64,000 nt of DNA from the NCBI RefSeq assembly GCF_004364335.1, contig NZ_SOCR01000003.1, positions 186,001-250,000 on the forward strand, written 5' to 3'. The position numbers were made by a program, and so were the translations under genes. Position 1 is the stretch's first letter; the number at the start of each line of letters is the position of its first letter. Positions 5,042 to 62,495 of the stretch are shown piece by piece. The notes beneath the pieces are model-generated. The model ran no database searches, was not told the DNA's origin, and saw only the letters and a program-made list of their open reading frames with translations. Origin of the DNA: Pseudomonas graminis (GTDB lineage: Bacteria > Pseudomonadota > Gammaproteobacteria > Pseudomonadales > Pseudomonadaceae).

Positions 5042-5122
5042 GGGATATGCCTGCGATGGATTTCGGGGCAGCCGGTTTGCTGCCGATCCCGATCGTCAGG
5101 CTGATGTGTTATTTGTGCCCAT

Positions 5123-5130
5123 AACAACAA
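5123..5130 (+). promoter_or_regulatory. AAnAAnAA motif in the gltR leader (candidate Hfq/Crc site)
   Basis: AACAACAA lies 25-32 bases before the gltR GTG. The AAnAAnAA pattern near a ribosome-binding site is the known target of Hfq/Crc in pseudomonad catabolite repression. Comparable motifs occur before gtsA and oprB. Confidence 0.55.
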
Positions 5131-7377: not shown

Positions 7378-7468
7378 TGTAGGAGCGCGCTTGCCCGCGA
7401 TGGCGGCAGTCAATCCAGCGCATCTTTTGTTGCGAGAACAATTTTTCGCGGGCAAGCGCGCTCCTACA
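7378..7468. repeat. REP inverted pair (REPIN-like)
   Basis: TGTAGGAGCGCGCTTGCCCG and the exact reverse complement CGGGCAAGCGCGCTCCTACA bracket about 50 bases after the gtrS stop. It separates the regulator genes from the transporter operon. Confidence 0.9.
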
Positions 7469-15756: not shown

Positions 15757-17226
15757 ATGCTCTCGATTACGGTTGAACCGTGCACTTTTGCGTTGTTTGG
15801 CGCCTTGGGTGACCTGGCGGTACGCAAACTGTTTCCTGCGTTGTACCAGCTTGATCGAGCTGGACTGCTGCATGCCGAGACCCGAATTATTGCGTTGGCT
15901 CGTGAGCCCGGAACTCCTGAAGAGCACCTGGCTTACATCGACAAGAGCCTGCGCCGCTTCGTCCCCGAGGCGCAGCTTAAGACCGAGCACGTGGAGCGTT
16001 TTCAGGCCCGCCTGAGTTACCTGCATGTGGACTTCCTCAAGGGCGAGGACTACGTCGCGCTCGCCGAGGCCGTGGGCGACGCGCCGACCATGATTGCCTA
16101 CTTCGCGACCCCGGCGTCGGTCTACGGCGCCATTTGCGAGAACCTCGCGCTGGTCGGCCTCACCGACCGCACCCGCGCGGTGCTGGAAAAACCCATCGGC
16201 CACGACCTCGCGTCGTCGCGCCGGGTTAACGATGCCGTTGCCAGGTTCCTGCCTGAAACCCGCATCTACCGGATCGATCACTACCTGGGCAAGGACACGG
16301 TGCAGAATCTCATCGCCCTGCGTTTTGCCAACAGCCTGTTCGAGACCCAGTGGAACCAGAACCATATCTCCCACGTGGAAATCACCGTGGCGGAGAAGGT
16401 CGGCATCGAAGGGCGCTGGGGTTATTTCGACCAGGCGGGCCAGCTGCGCGACATGATTCAGAACCACCTGTTGCAGCTGCTGTGCCTGATCGCGATGGAC
16501 CCGCCCAGCGACCTGTCCGCCGACAGCATCCGTGACGAGAAGGTGAAGGTGCTCAAGGCACTGGCGCCGTTCACGCCGGAGCGTCTGGCCACCCAAGTGG
16601 TGCGCGGTCAGTACATCGCCGGTTATAGCGACGGCAAGCCGGTGCCGGGTTATCTGGAGGAAGAAAACTCCAACACCCAGAGCGATACGGAAACGTTCGT
16701 CGCCATTCGTGCCGACATACGCAACTGGCGTTGGTCGGGCGTGCCGTTCTATCTGCGTACCGGCAAGCGCATGCCGCAGAAGCTGTCGCAGATCGTTATC
16801 CATTTCAAAGAGCCGCCGCATTACATCTTTGCGCCGGAGCAGCGCTTGCAGATCAGCAACCGCCTGATCATCCGCCTGCAGCCTGACGAAGGCATCTCGC
16901 TGCAAGTGATGACCAAGGATCAGGGCCTGGACAAAGGCATGCAGCTGCGCAGCAACCCTTTGCAACTGAGCTTCTCCGATGCCTACCGCAGCGCCCGTGT
17001 GCCGGACGCCTACGAGCGGTTGTTGCTGGAGGTCATGCGTGGCAATCAGAACCTGTTTGTCCGCAAAGACGAAATTGAATACGCCTGGCAATGGTGCGAC
17101 CAGTTGATCGCAGGCTGGAAAAAGGCGGGCGATGCGCCCAAGCCTTACCCCGCTGGTTCCTGGGGGCCGATGAGCTCCATTGCTTTGATTACGCGTGACG
17201 GGAGGTCCTGGTATGGCGATATGTGA
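15757..17226 (+). CDS. zwf: Glucose-6-phosphate 1-dehydrogenase
   Basis: A 489-residue enzyme that oxidises glucose-6-phosphate to 6-phosphogluconolactone with NAD(P)+. The N-terminal dinucleotide motif reads [19 protein letters not shown]; the common GASGDL is GALGDL here, a form I recall from pseudomonad Zwf-1. The active-site RIDHYLGKD is at 172-180, and [19 protein letters not shown] lies further on. The start ATG at 15757 gives [15 protein letters not shown]. It is divergent from hexR, and its last 14 bases overlap pgl. Confidence 0.97.
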
Positions 17227-17932
17227 ACTTGAATTTCCGGCGGGCTTGAAGGCCAACGAATTCGTTAACCCTGACGTGCTGGCGAACGCGCTGGCCGACC
17301 ACGTGGCCGAGCGTCTGACGGCGGCGATTTCCAGTAATCCTCACGGCACGGCCACCTTGGTGGTGTCGGGCGGCAAAAGCCCGGTGGCGTTTTTCAAGGC
17401 GCTGGCGCAGAAGCCACTCGAGTGGTCGAAAGTCTGCGTGAGCCTGGCTGACGAGCGCTGGGTGCCGATCGAGCACGCTGACAGCAACGAAGGCCTGCTC
17501 AAGCGTTTCCTGTTTCAGGGACCGGCAGCCGAGGCAGAGCTTTTTAGTCTTTACCGTGCCACGACCACAGTGGATGAAGCCGCGGCTGCCACTGACGAGG
17601 CGCTCAGGGAGCTGCCGAAGATCGACGTGCTGATTCTGGGCATGGGCGACGACGGCCACACCGCGTCGCTGTTTCCCAACAGCCCGCACCTGAAGGAAGC
17701 GCTGGACCTCAACAGTGAGCGTCGTTGCCTGCCCATGCTTGCACCGACCGTCCCGCATCAGCGTCTGACCCTGACGCGTCCGGTACTGGCGTCGGCAGCG
17801 ACCACCATCCTGTCCGTTTCCGGTCAGGCCAAACTCGACACATTGCGCGCGGCACTGGCAGGCGATGACCTCGCCGAAATGCCGGTGCGCGCGTTCCTCA
17901 ACTCGTCTCTAGAGATCTACTGGTGCCCATAA
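17213..17932 (+). CDS. pgl: 6-phosphogluconolactonase
   Basis: A 239-residue DevB-type lactonase that hydrolyses 6-phosphogluconolactone to 6-phosphogluconate. Motifs are [15 protein letters not shown] (near 50), [18 protein letters not shown] (near 80) and [17 protein letters not shown] (near 140). The ATG at 17213 follows GGGAGG at good spacing and lies inside the end of zwf, so translation is coupled. eda starts 17 bases after its stop. Length is normal. Confidence 0.95.
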
Positions 17933-17949
17933 GCAAAGGATCAGCCGCC

Positions 17950-18624
17950 ATGGAAAATACCCACGTGAAACAGCCGTTGAATAGCATGGCGAGCAAGATT
18001 GCCCAGATCGACGCACTCTGCGCGAAAGCGAAGATTCTGCCGGTCATTACCATCGCCCGCGAACAGGATGTCCTGCCGCTGGCCGATGCATTGGCCGCTG
18101 GCGGCCTGAATGCGCTGGAAATCACCCTGCGCTCGGAGTTCGGCCTCAAGGCCATTCGCATGCTGCGGGATGCGCGTCCCGAGCTGAGCGTTGGTGCCGG
18201 CACCATTCTCGACCGCCACATGCTCAAAGCGGCCGAGGAGGCGGGTTCACAATTCATCGTCACCCCCGGCAGCACCCAGGATCTGCTGGAAGCCGCCGCA
18301 CTCAGCGAATTGCCGCTGCTGCCAGGCATCAGCAGCGCTTCGGAAATCATGATCGGTTACGCGCTGGGTTATCGTCGCTTCAAGCTGTTCCCGGCGGAAA
18401 TCAGTGGCGGCGTTGGTGCGATCAAGGCGCTGGGCGGTCCATTCCCGGAAGTGCGCTTCTGCCCTACCGGCGGCGTCAGTGCGGCCAACCTGAAAAGTTA
18501 CATGGCACTGCCCAACGTGATGTGCGTCGGCGGCACCTGGATGATCGATAACGCGTGGGTGAAGAACGGCGACTGGCAGCGGATCACCGATGCCACTGCC
18601 GAAGCCATCGCGTTGTTCGACTGA
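17950..18624 (+). CDS. eda: KDPG/KHG aldolase
   Basis: A 224-residue class I aldolase that splits 2-keto-3-deoxy-6-phosphogluconate into pyruvate and glyceraldehyde-3-phosphate. The catalytic glutamate is E57 in LEITLRSE and the Schiff-base lysine is K145 in RRFKLFPAE; FCPTGGVSAANL forms the phosphate site. The ATG at 17950 was chosen because AAAGGA lies nine bases upstream; an in-frame GTG at 17923 inside pgl is less likely. It is the last gene of zwf-pgl-eda and is followed by a strong terminator. Confidence 0.96.
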   Translation: MENTHVKQPLNSMASKIAQIDALCAKAKILPVITIAREQDVLPLADALAAGGLNALEITLRSEFGLKAIRMLRDARPELSVGAGTILDRHMLKAAEEAGSQFIVTPGSTQDLLEAAALSELPLLPGISSASEIMIGYALGYRRFKLFPAEISGGVGAIKALGGPFPEVRFCPTGGVSAANLKSYMALPNVMCVGGTWMIDNAWVKNGDWQRITDATAEAIALFD

Positions 18625-18755
18625 GTCTGGAGTTGCCGGTCAGGCGCACGCTTCGACAGCCTTCGTTCAAGTGGAGGCTGTTTTACTGTTGAGCATGATC
18701 CGTTTATAGCGCCCTTCGGGGCGTTGCTGCAGAAGTCGTTGTTGCATGGCTTTTT

Positions 18756-18790
18756 AACGGTGTTCCTTGGTCGGGAGCGCCGTTTTTTTT
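18756..18790 (+). terminator. Rho-independent terminator after eda
   Basis: Stem AACGGTGTTCC/GGAGCGCCGTT (with G-T pairs) and an eight-T tail. A smaller GC hairpin (GCGCCCTTCGGGGCG, 18711-18725) lies upstream. The 18,625-18,968 gap holds these elements and the RNA candidate below, and no protein gene that I can support. Confidence 0.8.
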
Positions 18791-18817
18791 GCGTTGTTTA
18801 TACGCAATACATATGTA
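18789..18817 (+). promoter_or_regulatory. Candidate sigma-70 promoter of a small RNA
   Basis: TTGCGT (18789-18794), a 17-base spacer and TATGTA (18812-18817) give a plausible sigma-70 promoter directly after the eda terminator. The two hexamers are moderate matches. Confidence 0.35.
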
Positions 18818-18823
18818 CCGCAC

Positions 18824-18919
18824 AGGCAGTGGCTGGAGCGCTTATCTTTGCCGCTCCTTTGTAGTTCGTTTCTCGATGGATTTACGGCGTCTTCGTCATG
18901 AAGGCGCCGTCTTTTTTTC
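18824..18919 (+). ncRNA. Candidate small RNA of about 95 nt downstream of eda
   Basis: Between the candidate promoter and a second terminator (stem at 18884-18910 built on ACGGCGTCTT/AAGGCGCCGT, then a T7 tract) lies a short unit with an internal GGAGCG/CGCTCC hairpin (18834-18857 region). No open frame of note is present. Two terminators in tandem, with a promoter between them, are the argument; no known RNA family is recognised. Confidence 0.35.
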
Positions 18920-18968
18920 TACGGACTATCGAAGGCGTTGATCCCGGCGCCGCCTATTGAGGCAGACC

Positions 18969-20174
18969 TCAAGCCAGCGCGCGGAGTGCTGCCACCAACT
19001 GATCAACGTCCTTTGCCGACGTGGTGAATCCCGGTGTGATGCGAATGCACGTCCCGCAGGCCGAGCCTTCCCGCGTCACCGCAAAAATGCCGTGCTCATC
19101 GAGCAGGCGCTTGACCATGAGTTCCTGGTCCGCGTGACGGCTGAACCGAAATGAGGTGATCCCGCAATACAGTCGCGGGTCGTCCGGCGTCAGCACGTCG
19201 ATGCCTTCAATAGTGCGTGCGTGAGTGACCCACAGGTCCCGCAGATAGGCCAGGCGTGCGCCTTTGGCCGGTGCGCCGCCCATGGCGCGATGGTCGGCGA
19301 GCACTTTGGGCAGTGTCATCAGTGCCGGGATATTCGGCGTTCCGTAAGGCACGCGGCCGAGGATGTCGTCCGCACCGTAGCGTTCGTCTGCCATGTCGGG
19401 GTCGATGGCGCTCAGGCGTTCCTGCTTCACATAGATGAAGCCCAGGCTCAGCGGCGCGCCTATCCATTTCTGCAAATTGAAGCCGGCGAACGACACGCCA
19501 AGGTCGGCAAGCTCGAAATCGAGCAGGCCCAAGGCATGGGCGCCATCCAGAATCACTTCGATGCCGTGGGCCTTGGCCAGCTCGGCGATGGCCTTCACCG
19601 GCATCACCAGCCCGGTCCGTTGGGTGACGTAGGTCAGCGCCACCAACTTGAGTCGTGGGTGAGCGGCAAACGCTTCGCGGTAGGTCTGCAGCAACCCATC
19701 GTGGCTCGCCGGATGCTGATGAGTGACTTCGATCACTTCCACGCCGCGGTTCTTCGCCAGCCAGCGCATGCCGGTCTGCACGCTGTTGTAATCAAGGTCG
19801 CTGACCAGCACTTGGTCGCCAGCCGAGAGGCCGTTGTAGTTGCGGATCAGTGCTTGCACCGACTCCGACGCGGAGCGGGTGAGGGCGACTTCGCGGGTCG
19901 GCACGTTGAGCAGATCGGCGAGGTCGGCGCGAATGATCTCGCTGTCCTCGGTATCGAACTTTTGCCGCACATAGACCGAGTTGCTGCGATTGACGTAAGC
20001 GAGGTTTTGCTCGTAATCCCTGAGCGCTGCGCGGGTCATGCGGCCGAAATAGCCGTATTCGAAATTGACCGGCCCGGGCTCGACGTCGTATTGCGCCGCG
20101 ACCTGCTGCCAGAACGCTTCGTCCCGAGCCTGTTCATCCGCCCATTCCGTTATTGCGTATGCAGTGCTGTTCAT
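18969..20174 (-). CDS. Class V aminotransferase (isopenicillin-N-epimerase-like)
   Basis: A 401-residue PLP enzyme of fold type I. The cofactor aspartate is in VILDGAHALGLLD and the Schiff-base lysine is K236 in FAGFNLQKWIGAP. TRSASESVQALIRNYNGL forms the phosphate-binding start and FEYGYFGRMTRAALRDYEQN the N-terminal substrate region. The ATG at 20174 was chosen because it begins MNSTAYAITEWADEQ; upstream in-frame sequence to 20534 is an extension without family features. Members include epimerases, cysteine desulfurase-like enzymes and lyases, and the substrate cannot be assigned. It lies 29 bases downstream of a DUF3820 gene on the same strand. Confidence 0.8.
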   Translation of the reverse strand: MNSTAYAITEWADEQARDEAFWQQVAAQYDVEPGPVNFEYGYFGRMTRAALRDYEQNLAYVNRSNSVYVRQKFDTEDSEIIRADLADLLNVPTREVALTRSASESVQALIRNYNGLSAGDQVLVSDLDYNSVQTGMRWLAKNRGVEVIEVTHQHPASHDGLLQTYREAFAAHPRLKLVALTYVTQRTGLVMPVKAIAELAKAHGIEVILDGAHALGLLDFELADLGVSFAGFNLQKWIGAPLSLGFIYVKQERLSAIDPDMADERYGADDILGRVPYGTPNIPALMTLPKVLADHRAMGGAPAKGARLAYLRDLWVTHARTIEGIDVLTPDDPRLYCGITSFRFSRHADQELMVKRLLDEHGIFAVTREGSACGTCIRITPGFTTSAKDVDQLVAALRALA

Positions 20175-20203
20175 AAAGCGGCTCGCTTTTATCAATGGAC
20201 GTT

Positions 20204-20467
20204 TTAGTTGAAGCGTATGGGCGTTTTCGACGGGCCCGGCCGCAGCGGTTCGCGAGGTCGGGTGCGCAGAGGGTCCAACAATGCCGAGAGGCCGTTGTGA
20301 TCGATCTCGTGCATCAGTGCCAGCAGGCTGCCCAGCTCGCCTGCGGGAAAACCCTGTCGGGCAAACCAGTTCAGGTAGTCGCCCGGCAGATCTGCCAGCA
20401 ATCTCCCCTGATACTTGCCGAACGGCATTTCGCGCGTCACCAACAGCTTGAGTTTCTCCGGGTTCAT
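20204..20467 (-). CDS. DUF3820 family small protein
   Basis: An 87-residue protein. MPFGKYQGRLLADLPGDYLNWFARQGFPAGELGSLL is the hallmark of DUF3820, whose Pfam name is putative quorum-sensing-regulated virulence factor. The family fold is known but the biochemical role is not. The tail after residue 65 is basic and proline-rich. It precedes the aminotransferase on the same strand with a 29-base gap, so the two may be cotranscribed. The start ATG at 20467 was kept. Confidence 0.75.
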   Translation of the reverse strand: MNPEKLKLLVTREMPFGKYQGRLLADLPGDYLNWFARQGFPAGELGSLLALMHEIDHNGLSALLDPLRTRPREPLRPGPSKTPIRFN

Positions 20468-20617
20468 CCAATAACCGCTTATCCGTTCGAGTGAACTTGA
20501 AAGATACGTGCATTCTGCAATTGCGCAAACACACAGATCATGCAGAAAGCGCGGCGCGACTGTCGCTTGATATTCTTAACTCATTGAAAAATATGGATAT
20601 TTATTATCGGCAAAAGC

Positions 20618-20633
20618 TGGCATGCACAGTGCA
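20618..20633 (+). promoter_or_regulatory. Candidate sigma-54 promoter
   Basis: TGGCATGCACAGTGCA matches TGGCACG-N4-TTGCW at 14 of 16 scored or free positions, with the invariant GG and GC exactly ten bases apart. It lies 67 bases before the start of the PA2169-type gene. Confidence 0.4.
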
Positions 20634-20699
20634 ATATCTACCTCATCGAGTGTTTCGTTAACCAAACCTTTGATAAACCTGCCAGAAAGGAACCGCAAA

Positions 20700-21173
20700 A
20701 TGTCGGATATCAACAAAGAAGCCATCTCTATTCTGAATGACTTGATCGAGACCAGCATTGACGGTGAGAAAGGTTTTCACACTGCTGCTGAAGACGCCAA
20801 GAACCCTGAAATCAAGGCCTACCTGCTTTCCCGCTCTTCTGGCTGCAAGACCTCTGTAGCCGAGCTGCAAGCTGAAGTACGCGCACTGGGCGGCGATCCC
20901 GAAGACTCTTCCAGCATTGCTGGCGGCGCACACCGTCTGTGGGTCAACCTGAAAAGCGCCTTGAGCGGCAAGAACGACGAAGCCGTCCTGAATGAAGTCG
21001 AAAGCGGTGAAGATCACGCGCTGAAGGCTTACAAAAAGGCCGCTCAGGAAGCTACCGAGAAGAACCTGCCAGTCAACGTCACTTCCCTGATTCAGCGTCA
21101 GCTGCAGGGCGTGCAAGCGAACCACGACAAGGTCAAAGCCCTGCGTGATACCGTTCGTGCTGCCAACAAGTAA
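20700..21173 (+). CDS. PA2169-type four-helix-bundle protein (DUF2383)
   Basis: A 157-residue, all-helical, ferritin-like protein of the PA2169/DUF2383 group; members are often induced by stress or low oxygen, but their function is unsettled. The N-terminal helix pair SDINKEAISILNDLIETSIDGEKGF and ESGEDHALKAYKKAAQEA contain the glutamate and histidine positions typical of the fold. The ATG at 20700 follows AAAGGA and was preferred to 20622. The gene stands alone between a possible sigma-54 promoter and a strong terminator. Its codon use favours highly expressed genes. Confidence 0.8.
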   Translation: MSDINKEAISILNDLIETSIDGEKGFHTAAEDAKNPEIKAYLLSRSSGCKTSVAELQAEVRALGGDPEDSSSIAGGAHRLWVNLKSALSGKNDEAVLNEVESGEDHALKAYKKAAQEATEKNLPVNVTSLIQRQLQGVQANHDKVKALRDTVRAANK

Positions 21174-21189
21174 TTCGCAGTAGCTCTGA

Positions 21190-21217
21190 AAAACGCCAGC
21201 CAGTCTGGCGTTTTTTT
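21190..21217. terminator. Bidirectional terminator between convergent genes
   Basis: AAACGCCAG/CTGGCGTTT stem with A and T tracts on both sides. It ends the PA2169-type gene on the plus strand and can serve the diguanylate cyclase gene on the minus strand. Confidence 0.85.
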
Positions 21218-22745
21218 ATTTCTGCAGTCCGGCAGAGGGCGTCGCGTATGGTTCGACTTCCACGCGATTCCTGCCATTTTTCTTGGCACGGTACAGGGCA
21301 CGATCTGCAGCATGAAACAGCAGTTCGGGCTGATCGTGGGTTACCGGCAGATGCGTGGCGATGCCGATGCTTACGGTGATGGGCACTGTGTCCTCGGCAA
21401 AGAGCGGAAGCGCTTCGATTGCCTGACGCAGCTTTTCTGCAATGACACAGGCACCTGCCTTGTCGGTTTCCGGAAGCACTACCATGAACTCTTCACCGCC
21501 ATACCGGGCGGCGAGGTCACCTGGCCTGCGGATGCTGGCGGCCAGCGTCTGGGCAACGCTGCGCAAGGCGACGTCGCCGCCATGATGTCCGTGCCGGTCA
21601 TTGAAGGCCTTGAAGTGGTCGACGTCGATCATCAGTAGGGCAAGAGGCTTGCCCGAACGCATGCCGCGCGCCCATTCCTGCTTGAGCACCTGATCCAGCC
21701 TGCGCCGATTGGCCAGGCCGGTCAGCCCGTCTGTGGAGGCCAGCCCCGCCAGTTCGCGCTCGGCGTTCTGGCGCAGGCGCAGCTGGCGGCCCAACAGCCA
21801 GGACAGCAAAAGGATCCCAATGCACAGCAAGCCGGTTGCGCCCGCCACCAGCAACGCATTGCGTTTCCATACGGCATAGACGTCATCCCGCGATTGAGCC
21901 ACCACGACGATCAATGGCAAGTCACCCACCCGTGAGAAGGTGTAAAGCCGCTGAGCACCGTCGAGCTCGGATACCGCCGCAAAGCTGCCGTTGACTTCTT
22001 GCAGGATGCGTTTGAAGTTGGGCCGCATGCTGAAGTTCTGGCCGATGAAGGTCCGGTTGTTGTCATCGGGTTGCCGGGCCAGCATCACGCCATCCGCGCT
22101 GAGCAGGTTGACGGTGCTGGTGGGACCGATGTCCAGAGTGCGAAACAGTTGGTCGAAGTACGACAGGCGCATTGATGCACTGGCAATGCCGACAAACTGA
22201 CCATTGTCGGAGGGGAGGCGGCGACTGAAGCTGATGCACAGGTCCTTGAAGCCCCAGCGCGACAGGAAGGGCCCGTCGACCACCAGCGCCAGCGAGCCGC
22301 TGTCCCGATGTTCCTGAAACCCCGGCCGATCGGAAAAGTTGTCCTGCCGCGGCGTCAACGAGGTGGAGTCGGCGACGATGCGCCCGGTGTCATCGAGCAG
22401 CACCAGGTCGCCCTTGTAAGGCGCCGCCGTGGCCCGGTCGAAGAGAACCAGCTGCCGTAACTCCGGCGAGATCGTCATGACATCGGGGCGTCGCCATGCA
22501 GCGATCAGGCCCTGAAGAGAGGTGTCGTACAGCTCGGCGTTACGCTGCACGTCAGCGTCGATCAGCTGCACCACATTGTTGGCCGAGCGCACTGCAGCTT
22601 CGTTGGCGGTGTCCAGCTCCCGAAACAGCAACCAGGTCACGATGGCGAGGATGGCTGCCACCGCCACGGCGCTGCCCAGCATCAGCATCTTCTCGGAACC
22701 TGATCTGATCCCGGGTGAAAATGGAGGCATGGCTGTCAGTGGCAT
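21216..22745 (-). CDS. Membrane diguanylate cyclase with periplasmic Cache sensor
   Basis: A 509-residue enzyme making cyclic di-GMP. A membrane helix lies near residues 20-42, a periplasmic dCache-like sensor at about 45-290 and a second helix near 300-325. The GGDEF domain (about 345-500) contains LTGLANRR, the active-site GGEEF in YGGEEFMVVLP, and the inhibitory RxxD site (RPGD) five residues before it, so activity and product inhibition both look intact. The start ATG at 22745 has a weak AGAGATGA upstream. The sensed signal is unknown; Cache domains in this position usually bind amino acids or small carboxylates. Confidence 0.93.
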   Translation of the reverse strand: MPLTAMPPFSPGIRSGSEKMLMLGSAVAVAAILAIVTWLLFRELDTANEAAVRSANNVVQLIDADVQRNAELYDTSLQGLIAAWRRPDVMTISPELRQLVLFDRATAAPYKGDLVLLDDTGRIVADSTSLTPRQDNFSDRPGFQEHRDSGSLALVVDGPFLSRWGFKDLCISFSRRLPSDNGQFVGIASASMRLSYFDQLFRTLDIGPTSTVNLLSADGVMLARQPDDNNRTFIGQNFSMRPNFKRILQEVNGSFAAVSELDGAQRLYTFSRVGDLPLIVVVAQSRDDVYAVWKRNALLVAGATGLLCIGILLLSWLLGRQLRLRQNAERELAGLASTDGLTGLANRRRLDQVLKQEWARGMRSGKPLALLMIDVDHFKAFNDRHGHHGGDVALRSVAQTLAASIRRPGDLAARYGGEEFMVVLPETDKAGACVIAEKLRQAIEALPLFAEDTVPITVSIGIATHLPVTHDQPELLFHAADRALYRAKKNGRNRVEVEPYATPSAGLQK

Positions 22746-22790
22746 CGATCATCTCTGACGGGGAATGGAGGCGTCGTGCAGCCCTGGGGC

Positions 22791-23063
22791 TTATTCGCCT
22801 TCGTCAAACTTGTTGTTGATCAGTTCGACCAGTCCCGCCAGCGCGGCATCGGCGTCCTCACCTTCAGTGGCCAGGTGGATCAGGGTGCCCTTGCCGGCAG
22901 CCAGCATCATGACGGCCATGATGCTTTTGCCATCGACCATGGTTTCCGGCGTGCGGCCGACCCTGATCTGACACGGGTACTTGCCGGCGACACCTACGAA
23001 CTTGGCGGCGGCCCGGGCGTGCAGACCCAGCTTGTTGATGATGGTGATTTCTAGAGCGGGCAT
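22791..23063 (-). CDS. ptsO: Nitrogen PTS phosphocarrier protein NPr
   Basis: A 90-residue HPr-like protein that passes phosphate from PtsP (EI-Ntr) to PtsN. The phospho-accepting histidine is H15 in NKLGLHARAAAKFV; the region around S47 (VDGKSIMAVMML) aligns with the HPr regulatory serine segment. It lies 16 bases after rapZ on the same strand, at the end of the rpoN-hpf-ptsN-rapZ-ptsO cluster. It acts in regulation rather than sugar import; PtsP is not in this window. Confidence 0.95.
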   Translation of the reverse strand: MPALEITIINKLGLHARAAAKFVGVAGKYPCQIRVGRTPETMVDGKSIMAVMMLAAGKGTLIHLATEGEDADAALAGLVELINNKFDEGE

Positions 23064-23079
23064 CGCGATGGAGGTCCTT

Positions 23080-23937
23080 TCAGCTTAGGTCGCGGTGGCG
23101 GACCTGAACATTCTTGAGCGATTGCTGCAGCACCTGACCCAGACGTTCGGTCAGGTAGACGGAGCGGTGGTGCCCGCCGGTGCAGCCAATGGCAATAGTG
23201 ACGTAGGCGCGGTTGCTGGCGGCGAAGCGCGGCAACCACTTATTAAGGTACGAAAAGATGTCCTGGAACATCTCTTCGACGTCCGGTTGCGCCGCGAGGT
23301 ACTCGGCAACCGGCTTGTCGAGGCCCGACTGCTCGCGCAACTCGGGTTTCCAGTACGGGTTGGGCAGGCAGCGCACGTCGAACACCAGGTCGGCGTCCAC
23401 GGGCATGCCTCGCTTGAAGCCGAAGGATTCGATGAGGAAGGCAGTGCCCGGCTCGGGTTTGTTCAGCAGGCGCAATTTGAGGATGTCGCGCAGCTGATAG
23501 AGATTCAGGTGCGTGGTGTCGACGGTCAGATCCGCCAGGTCGATGATCGGGCCGAGCAGCGTCTTCTCGTCACGAATCGCTTCGGCCAGCGAGCGTGTTG
23601 CCGTGCTCAGCGGGTGACGACGGCGGGTCTCGGAAAAGCGCTTGAGCAGGGTAGATTCATCGGCATCGAGAAACAGCACGTCGCACTGGATGTGGCGGGC
23701 GCGAACTTCGGCGAGCATGCGCGGGAATCGTGTCAGGTGACTGGGCAGGTTGCGTGCGTCGATCGAGACCGCCAGCAGGGGCTCAGCCAGCTCGGTGTTG
23801 ATCAGCGCGCGCTCGGCCAGTTCCGGGAGCAGGCCGGCGGGCAGGTTGTCGACGCAGTAGAAGCCGCTGTCTTCAAGGACATCGAGGGCCGTGCTCTTGC
23901 CGGAGCCGGAGCGGCCGCTGACGATGATCATGCGCAT
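23080..23937 (-). CDS. rapZ: RNase adapter protein RapZ
   Basis: A 285-residue nucleotide-binding RNA adaptor. Walker A is GRSGSGKST at residues 8-16. The C-terminal domain carries ERLGQ and the [19 protein letters not shown] motif conserved in RapZ/YvcJ proteins. In enterobacteria RapZ guides RNase E to a small RNA controlling glucosamine-6-phosphate synthase and senses glucosamine-6-phosphate; the pseudomonad role is inferred. Two bases separate the ptsN stop from its ATG. The name reflects homology only. Confidence 0.94.
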
Positions 23938-23939
23938 GG

Positions 23940-24404
23940 TCAGTGACCGTTCTGGACGTCGATCACGACGTTGTAGAGCTCTTCAGCGGTTTTGGCACCG
24001 CGCAGCCGCTTACGCACCTCGGCCTGATCAAGCATGCTGGCGATCTGGCGCAGCAGCTCGAGGTGAGCATCGGTCGCCGCTTCCGGGACCAGCAGCACGA
24101 ACAGCAGGTCAACCGGTGCGCCGTCGATGGCGTCGAAATCGATGGGTTTTTCGAGATGCAGCACGGCACTGACAGGCGTTGAACAGCCCTTCAGACGGCA
24201 GTGGGGAATGGCGATGCCATTACCGAATCCGGTAGAGCCGAGTTTTTCACGGGCAATAAAACTTTCAAACACCACCTGCTCATCCAGACCAGGCACTTGT
24301 TTGCTGATCATGTTGGCGATGTTTTGGAGTACGGCTTTTTTGCTGCCGCCTGGCACGTTCACGAGTGAACGGCCAGGGGTCAGGATATTTTCAAGTCGGA
24401 TCAT
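23940..24404 (-). CDS. ptsN: Nitrogen PTS EIIA component PtsN
   Basis: A 154-residue EIIA-Ntr protein that receives phosphate from NPr on H68 ([13 protein letters not shown]). The family core [18 protein letters not shown] precedes it. Its phosphorylation state influences potassium transport, pyruvate dehydrogenase and carbon/nitrogen balance in pseudomonads. The gene lies 12 bases after hpf and is tightly linked to rapZ, so the block is probably one transcription unit with rpoN. Confidence 0.95.
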
Positions 24405-24416
24405 GAGTGGGGAGTG

Positions 24417-24725
24417 TCAGCGAGCAGTCGCACCTTGCAGCAGACTTTGCTGTTTTTCCTTATGTTTTTTGAGTTGGCGGTCAAGCTTGTCGGCAAGCAG
24501 GTCAATGGCTGCATACATGTCGTCGTGTTCGGCGTTGGCAACCACTTCAGCGCCAGGAACGTGCAGGGTGGCTTCGATTTTCTGCTTGAGCTTCTCGACC
24601 TCCATCGTGACCTGCACATTCGTGATCTTGTCAAAGTGGCGCTCCAATCGGGCGAGCTTCTCGCCGATGTAGGTACGCAGAGGTTCGGTCACTTCCAGCT
24701 GGTGTCCACTGATGTTGACTTGCAT
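24417..24725 (-). CDS. hpf: Ribosome hibernation promoting factor
   Basis: A 102-residue short-form HPF/RaiA-family protein that binds the 30S decoding centre and supports 100S dimer formation in stationary phase. Sequence begins MQVNISGHQLEVTEPLRTYI and contains the conserved basic helix ADKLDRQLKKHKEKQQ. The ATG at 24725 was chosen because AAGGAGA sits at ideal spacing; an earlier in-frame start at 24752 adds nine unrelated residues. It lies between rpoN and ptsN, and a nested hairpin occupies the rpoN-hpf spacer. Confidence 0.95.
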   Translation of the reverse strand: MQVNISGHQLEVTEPLRTYIGEKLARLERHFDKITNVQVTMEVEKLKQKIEATLHVPGAEVVANAEHDDMYAAIDLLADKLDRQLKKHKEKQQSLLQGATAR

Positions 24726-62135: not shown

Positions 62136-62495
62136 GAGAGTCGATTGGACAGTCGCTGCCTTTCATTGTTCTGCAATGAAGGGGGGAGGAAAGTCCGGGC
62201 TCCATAGGGCGGAGTGCCAGGTAACGCCTGGGGGGCGTGAGCCTACGGAAAGTGCCACAGAAAATAACCGCCTAAGCACTTCGGTGCCGGTAAGGGTGAA
62301 AAGGTGCGGTAAGAGCGCACCGCACGTCTGGCAACAGTTCGTGGCTAGGTAAACCCCACTCGGAGCAAGACCAAATAGGGTTCCAAGGCGTGGCCCGCGC
62401 TGGAACCGGGTAGGTTGCTAAAGATGTCCAGTGATGGCCATCGTAGAGGAATGACTGTCCTCGACAGAACCCGGCTTACAGATCGACTCTCCACC
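62136..62495 (+). ncRNA. rnpB: RNase P RNA, class A
   Basis: The catalytic RNA of RNase P. The 5' end GGAGAGTCGATTGGACAGTC pairs with the 3' end GATCGACTCTCC. Conserved stretches GAGGAAAGTCCGGGCTCCAT (P4 left arm region) and GACAGAACCCGGCTTACAG (P4 right arm) are intact, and GGTAAACCCC and CAGTGATGGC are visible. Ends are set by the terminal helix and could be off by several bases. It lies between rsmI and mraZ, the usual pseudomonad position. Confidence 0.95.

Follow-up and report, generated by a model that had tools for sequence, protein, structure and literature searches.

The window, that is, the whole stretch of 64 000 nucleotides of Pseudomonas graminis DNA analysed here, carries on its + strand zwf-, pgl- and eda-like genes, which are named by eye and after an original prediction made on the same DNA rather than by a family search. 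Downstream of them the + strand presents the eda terminator (a stem at 18756-18784, then a T run), and directly after it, as that prediction had placed it, the unit that concerns us, a candidate small RNA gene. Beyond the unit an aminotransferase-like gene of the - strand, also named by eye, ends at 18969; the unit sits between these convergent genes. The Eda protein of the window is 99-100% identical to that of P. graminis and P. petrae. Comparison with relatives supports the view that this is an independent unit enclosed by two terminators, and the prediction of a small RNA gene at this place is well supported.

For this comparison, loci 3' of eda were gathered from named genomes and from a set of 398 Pseudomonas genomes, two sources that overlap and are therefore not independent. 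Seventeen loci were aligned (alignment A1) and 11 divergent ones were chosen from among them, values for all 17 being computed as well; a second alignment (A2) retains 16 of the 17, L013 being left out.

A predicted promoter re-assigned

The original prediction had seen a promoter in TTGCGT (18789-18794) and, 17 bases further, TATGTA (18812-18817). Both strings are present, but the position of the first has a mean pairwise identity of 33% in the 11 divergent loci (36.5% in all 17), which does not speak for a promoter part. TATGTA is indeed conserved, yet it lies inside a longer upstream element, GC-N-ATANATATGTACCGCA (18804-18822, + strand), near-invariant in the 17 loci and placed ahead of another -10, TATCTT (18843-18848, + strand), and it loses the promoter role that it had been given. 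The string TATGTACCGCA is identical in 16 of the 17 aligned loci, with one base differing in L018, and TATCTT is kept in as many, the exception being TATCGT in L012. Between the element and this -10 run 20 bases (18823-18842, + strand), the same number in 17 of 17 loci, the letters of which are unconserved (mean identity 40.8% in the divergent loci, 45.7% in all 17); to be constant in length and not in sequence is what is expected of a promoter spacer. The 26 bases 3' of the -10 have a mean identity of 58.7%, without gaps, in the 11 divergent loci. No conserved -35 hexamer is evident in the eda-linked unit among the 17 aligned loci, and it is for this reason that we infer an activator at the -35 region, with the element, which overlaps that region, as its proposed site; a generic sigma-70 promoter scan of 16000-21000 returned no site. 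The fixed spacing of element and -10 would give the unit a promoter of its own.

The predicted RNA

With the promoter re-assigned, a start near 18824, as first put forward, finds no support. Counted from the -10, the start would lie near 18855, within 1-2 bases, and the RNA, of about 64 nt instead of some 95 bases, would extend on the + strand from about 18855 to 18918. Its proposed pairing region is a conserved CTCCTTTGTAGTTCG-like leader (18854-18868, + strand, alignment A2), which L014, L018 and L023 lack or have in altered form. Its end would be an intrinsic terminator (18884-18918, + strand), the GC-rich stem of which, at 18884-18910 and followed by C and a T7 tail, had been recognized from the outset. 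Double changes are found at five of the nine consensus pairs of this stem, in 17 cells; the cell count was matched by none of 500 shuffles and the pair count by 21 of 500, such shuffles being a lenient control as the loci are related in sequence. This covariation indicates that the predicted terminator is kept by selection. Comparison between loci shows in this way the geometry of the predicted promoter, the predicted terminator and the conservation of the leader. The predicted fold of the proposed 64-nt RNA surpasses each of 200 shuffles (z -4.93), and the leader is partly paired in the predicted fold of the window's own RNA. By inspection, frames and lengths differ among the 11 divergent loci and no reading frame is conserved, and on this ground a small protein in place of an RNA was rejected.

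A different molecule had originally been drawn: a two-hairpin RNA of about 95 nt, made from the TTGCGT/TATGTA promoter and tied to glucose. Its strings and both of its hairpins do exist in the window, the first with its arms GGAGCG at 18835-18840 and CGCTCC at 18852-18857, and the 97-nt stretch 18822-18918 folds well, surpassing all of 200 shuffles (z -3.65). However, in the first stem 66.7% of cells are paired, no more than the 68.0% of shuffled columns, and while the terminator hairpin is conserved in relatives, this one is not; furthermore, the position of TTGCGT is unconserved, TATCTT and its spacing are left unexplained and no HexR-type box lies nearby. We find this molecule very improbable.

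The glucose link had been drawn from position alone. Membership in the HexR (glucose) regulon would go with a box at the promoter, which we take to be TTGT-N7/8-ACAA. The window has five boxes of this type (1945-2382, 5113-5127 and 7427-7441), against 1.2 expected by chance. The unit's promoter has none, the nearest in the window, at 7427, lying more than 11 kb away, and assignment to this regulon was rejected. The element, for its part, is also found next to toxin-like, bacteriocin and other genes, and a glucose link of the RNA has no support. A separate observation concerns the 3' end of eda, where a conserved block precedes the terminator (18725-18791 in the window): GAAGTYGTTGTTG is present 3' of eda in 30 of 52 named loci, and the window's copy has two predicted stems (z -3.19). 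The block may be processed from the eda mRNA into a small RNA; if so, that one would be the glucose-linked RNA.

Distribution and origin

Searched with a covariance model built on the RNA part (R1), 11 of the 398 Pseudomonas genomes have matches at E 1.3e-9 or better, all directly after eda, and these are the very 11 genomes in which Eda is at least 92% identical. The remaining 35 of the 46 matched genomes, outside this clade, have E values of 0.005-0.1; many of these weak matches span the terminator half alone, and ten lie just after eda. Among the named loci with Eda at least 92% identical the element is present in 14 of 15, and was not found in L019. The predicted RNA gene is one that belongs to the P. 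graminis / P. petrae / P. abietaniphila group. As to where it came from, the eda terminator together with the bases ahead of it matches positions 21-79 of the RNA model with about 26 bits, mostly via the terminator, which suggests that the RNA may have been copied from the eda 3' end.

This same weak resemblance, together with the place of the unit between convergent genes, could be understood in another way, the unit being merely an additional, backup terminator for eda, with a promoter that is a relic and without a functional RNA. Against this, element, -10 and leader are conserved across loci with diverged spacers, and in L015 and L018 the unit is retained with extra sequence in front of it. 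We consider a backup terminator quite improbable, and retain a gene for a functional RNA as the preferred reading.

The element across Pseudomonas

The element core, ATANATATGTACCGC, is present in 105 of the 398 Pseudomonas genomes, with one to four copies in each, and the reversed control gave none among the matches listed; in 184 other genomes of the class the core has a single match in three and the control a match in one. From 71 distinct fetched sites, removal of two eda-linked ones and of near-copies left 41 unrelated, dereplicated sites. In these the hexamer at the TATCTT offset has T at position 6 in 29 of 41, against a mean of 9.7 over 200 offsets and a runner-up of 23, which is position 1 of the same hexamer. 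Over the same 200 offsets, NANNNT stands there in 17 of the 41 sites, with a mean of 2.1 and a runner-up of 6, and TANNNT in 7, with a mean of 0.24 and a runner-up of 2, the TATCTT offset being the best for all three counts alike. We may take it that the predicted spacing of the eda side holds at unrelated genes too, and this enrichment away from eda is the strongest evidence that sequence comparison has provided here; some sites do not fit, T at position 6 being missing from 12 of the 41. At one place away from eda (L009, 1501-1545), a short hairpin and T7 come immediately after the element, ahead of where the -10 would be expected.

The nature of the factor that would bind the element has to be weighed at this point. 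In L226 the element forms a perfect palindrome, GCGGTACATATATATGTACCGC, with two overlapping copies and sites on both strands, a hint to the symmetry of the regulator, and the copies in an ABC-transporter-like spacer, described below, have a partial second half. Both would suit a repressor or another symmetric regulator, the RNA being made by default and switched off in some condition. Most sites, however, are asymmetric and have no evident -35 hexamer, so that activation fits better, and we regard repression as unlikely. An activator-dependent small RNA, with a promoter type common to competition genes, is the most likely reading of these data.

The genes that accompany the element were considered at 112 distinct sites, drawn from the matches listed and grouped by downstream ORF clusters, the family names of which were assigned from scanned members only. 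Thirty-four of the 112 are in ORF clusters with ToxA_N, S-type pyocin, colicin M, lectin-bacteriocin or RHS members: a ToxA_N cluster accounts for 20 sites (three members scanned, all of them matching), a further ToxA_N pair for 2 (one scanned), an S-type pyocin cluster for 7 (three scanned), a colicin M cluster for 3 (two scanned), and an RHS protein and a putidacin-like lectin, below the curated cut-offs of both Pfam and NCBIfam, for one each. A DUF4329 cluster takes 8 sites, with two scanned members that match and one (L122) without family. Another 28 sites (22 + 6) lie in the ABC-transporter-like spacer (its gene named by eye in L097) and point to the 3' end of that gene, which is convergent; there a conserved ACTTCCATCCRTGGAAGT dyad follows the element (L097, L098, L108, L112, L120, L226 and others), possibly another non-coding target. 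The remaining sites go with ecotin, DIT1_PvcA, M16 peptidase or ribbon-helix-helix families, or with none. Overall, a Pfam scan of 39 proteins gave a family in 18 and none in 21, and NCBIfam, for 10 proteins, one clear partial match (the putidacin-like lectin) and one very weak. In the genome of the window the other two exact element sites precede a cupin lipoprotein (below the Pfam cut-off) and an ORF without family, the relative of which in L126 has no family either. As these are not toxin genes, the tie between the RNA and toxins consists in an element common across the genus.

Targets and proposed mechanism

Targets were sought in 11 genomes. With one mismatch, GAACTACAAAGGAG gave 14 matches, 8 of which are the RNA gene itself and the other 6 single-mismatch places in three genomes, the reversed control giving 13. 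Before ATG, CTACAAAGGA gave 10 matches in 8 of the 11 genomes against one control match, with recurrence at a gamma-glutamyltranspeptidase-like start (named by eye) in two genomes and at a short ORF in three. No convincing near-perfect complement to the leader recurs across the 11 genomes.

The following sequence of events may be proposed. A putative activator would bind 18804-18822, overlapping the -35 region, and recruit RNA polymerase, carrying the housekeeping sigma factor, to the -10 (18843-18848); the transcript made from there would measure about 64 nt and end at its own terminator. The CTCCTTTGTAGTTCG leader would then pair with ribosome-binding sites of target mRNAs, with Hfq probably on the U tail, and translation of the targets would fall while the regulator is active; in relatives, that regulator would also serve toxin and bacteriocin genes. 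Taken as a whole, an activator-driven RNA of about 64 nt, the leader of which acts on target mRNAs in the P. graminis group, is our best explanation, and we hold it to be somewhat probable. Against it count the non-toxin neighbours of the other two sites in this genome, the 21 scanned proteins for which Pfam gave nothing, the 28 sites facing the end of a convergent gene, the target search, in which none recurred convincingly, and the partial pairing of the leader. A wider proposal is possible, if rather doubtful: the element would be the operator of an undescribed activator that governs a competition regulon throughout Pseudomonas (pyocins, colicin M, lectin bacteriocins, ToxA_N, RHS), and one lineage would have added to this regulon, as a post-transcriptional arm, a small RNA that may be a copy of the 3' end of eda.

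The outcome is a precisely defined candidate small RNA gene with a corrected promoter, and a promoter element common across Pseudomonas, the sites of which include several unrelated toxin and bacteriocin families. The factor that binds this element, once found, could show how these bacteria time their attacks on neighbours.

Comparison with known systems

As the original prediction had it, no family is recognized in the small RNA stretch: Rfam 15, at gathering score over the window, gives none there, nor does a search at E up to 10 over 18600-19000. The best Rfam match to the stretch is the suhB/mmgR small RNA (RF00519), with E 0.027 for a 401-base search; the match has 21.8 bits where the gathering score is 41, and the unit is thus not a member. 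The same window contains a class A RNase P RNA at 62137-62494 (337.7 bits). Searches of an open-licence library, the letters TATGTACCGC included, yielded no description of the RNA or of the element.

In P. aeruginosa, PrtN controls pyocin genes. The control of lysis and pyocin genes by AlpA and PrtN in that species resembles the present case in having a promoter motif common to bacteriocin-type genes. The AlpA motif, GGGACGN5GGTA, lies between -35 and -10 (PMC7969949). With up to two mismatches it has no match in 18480-24555, and membership in the AlpA regulon was rejected on this account.

Trans-acting, terminator-ended bacterial small RNAs of the Hfq type have their own promoter, a short pyrimidine-rich leader and a terminator with a U tail. 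The unit differs from them in being known here from its sequence alone and in having no Rfam family, and is like them in its predicted own promoter, its pyrimidine-rich leader able to face ribosome-binding sites and its U-tail terminator.
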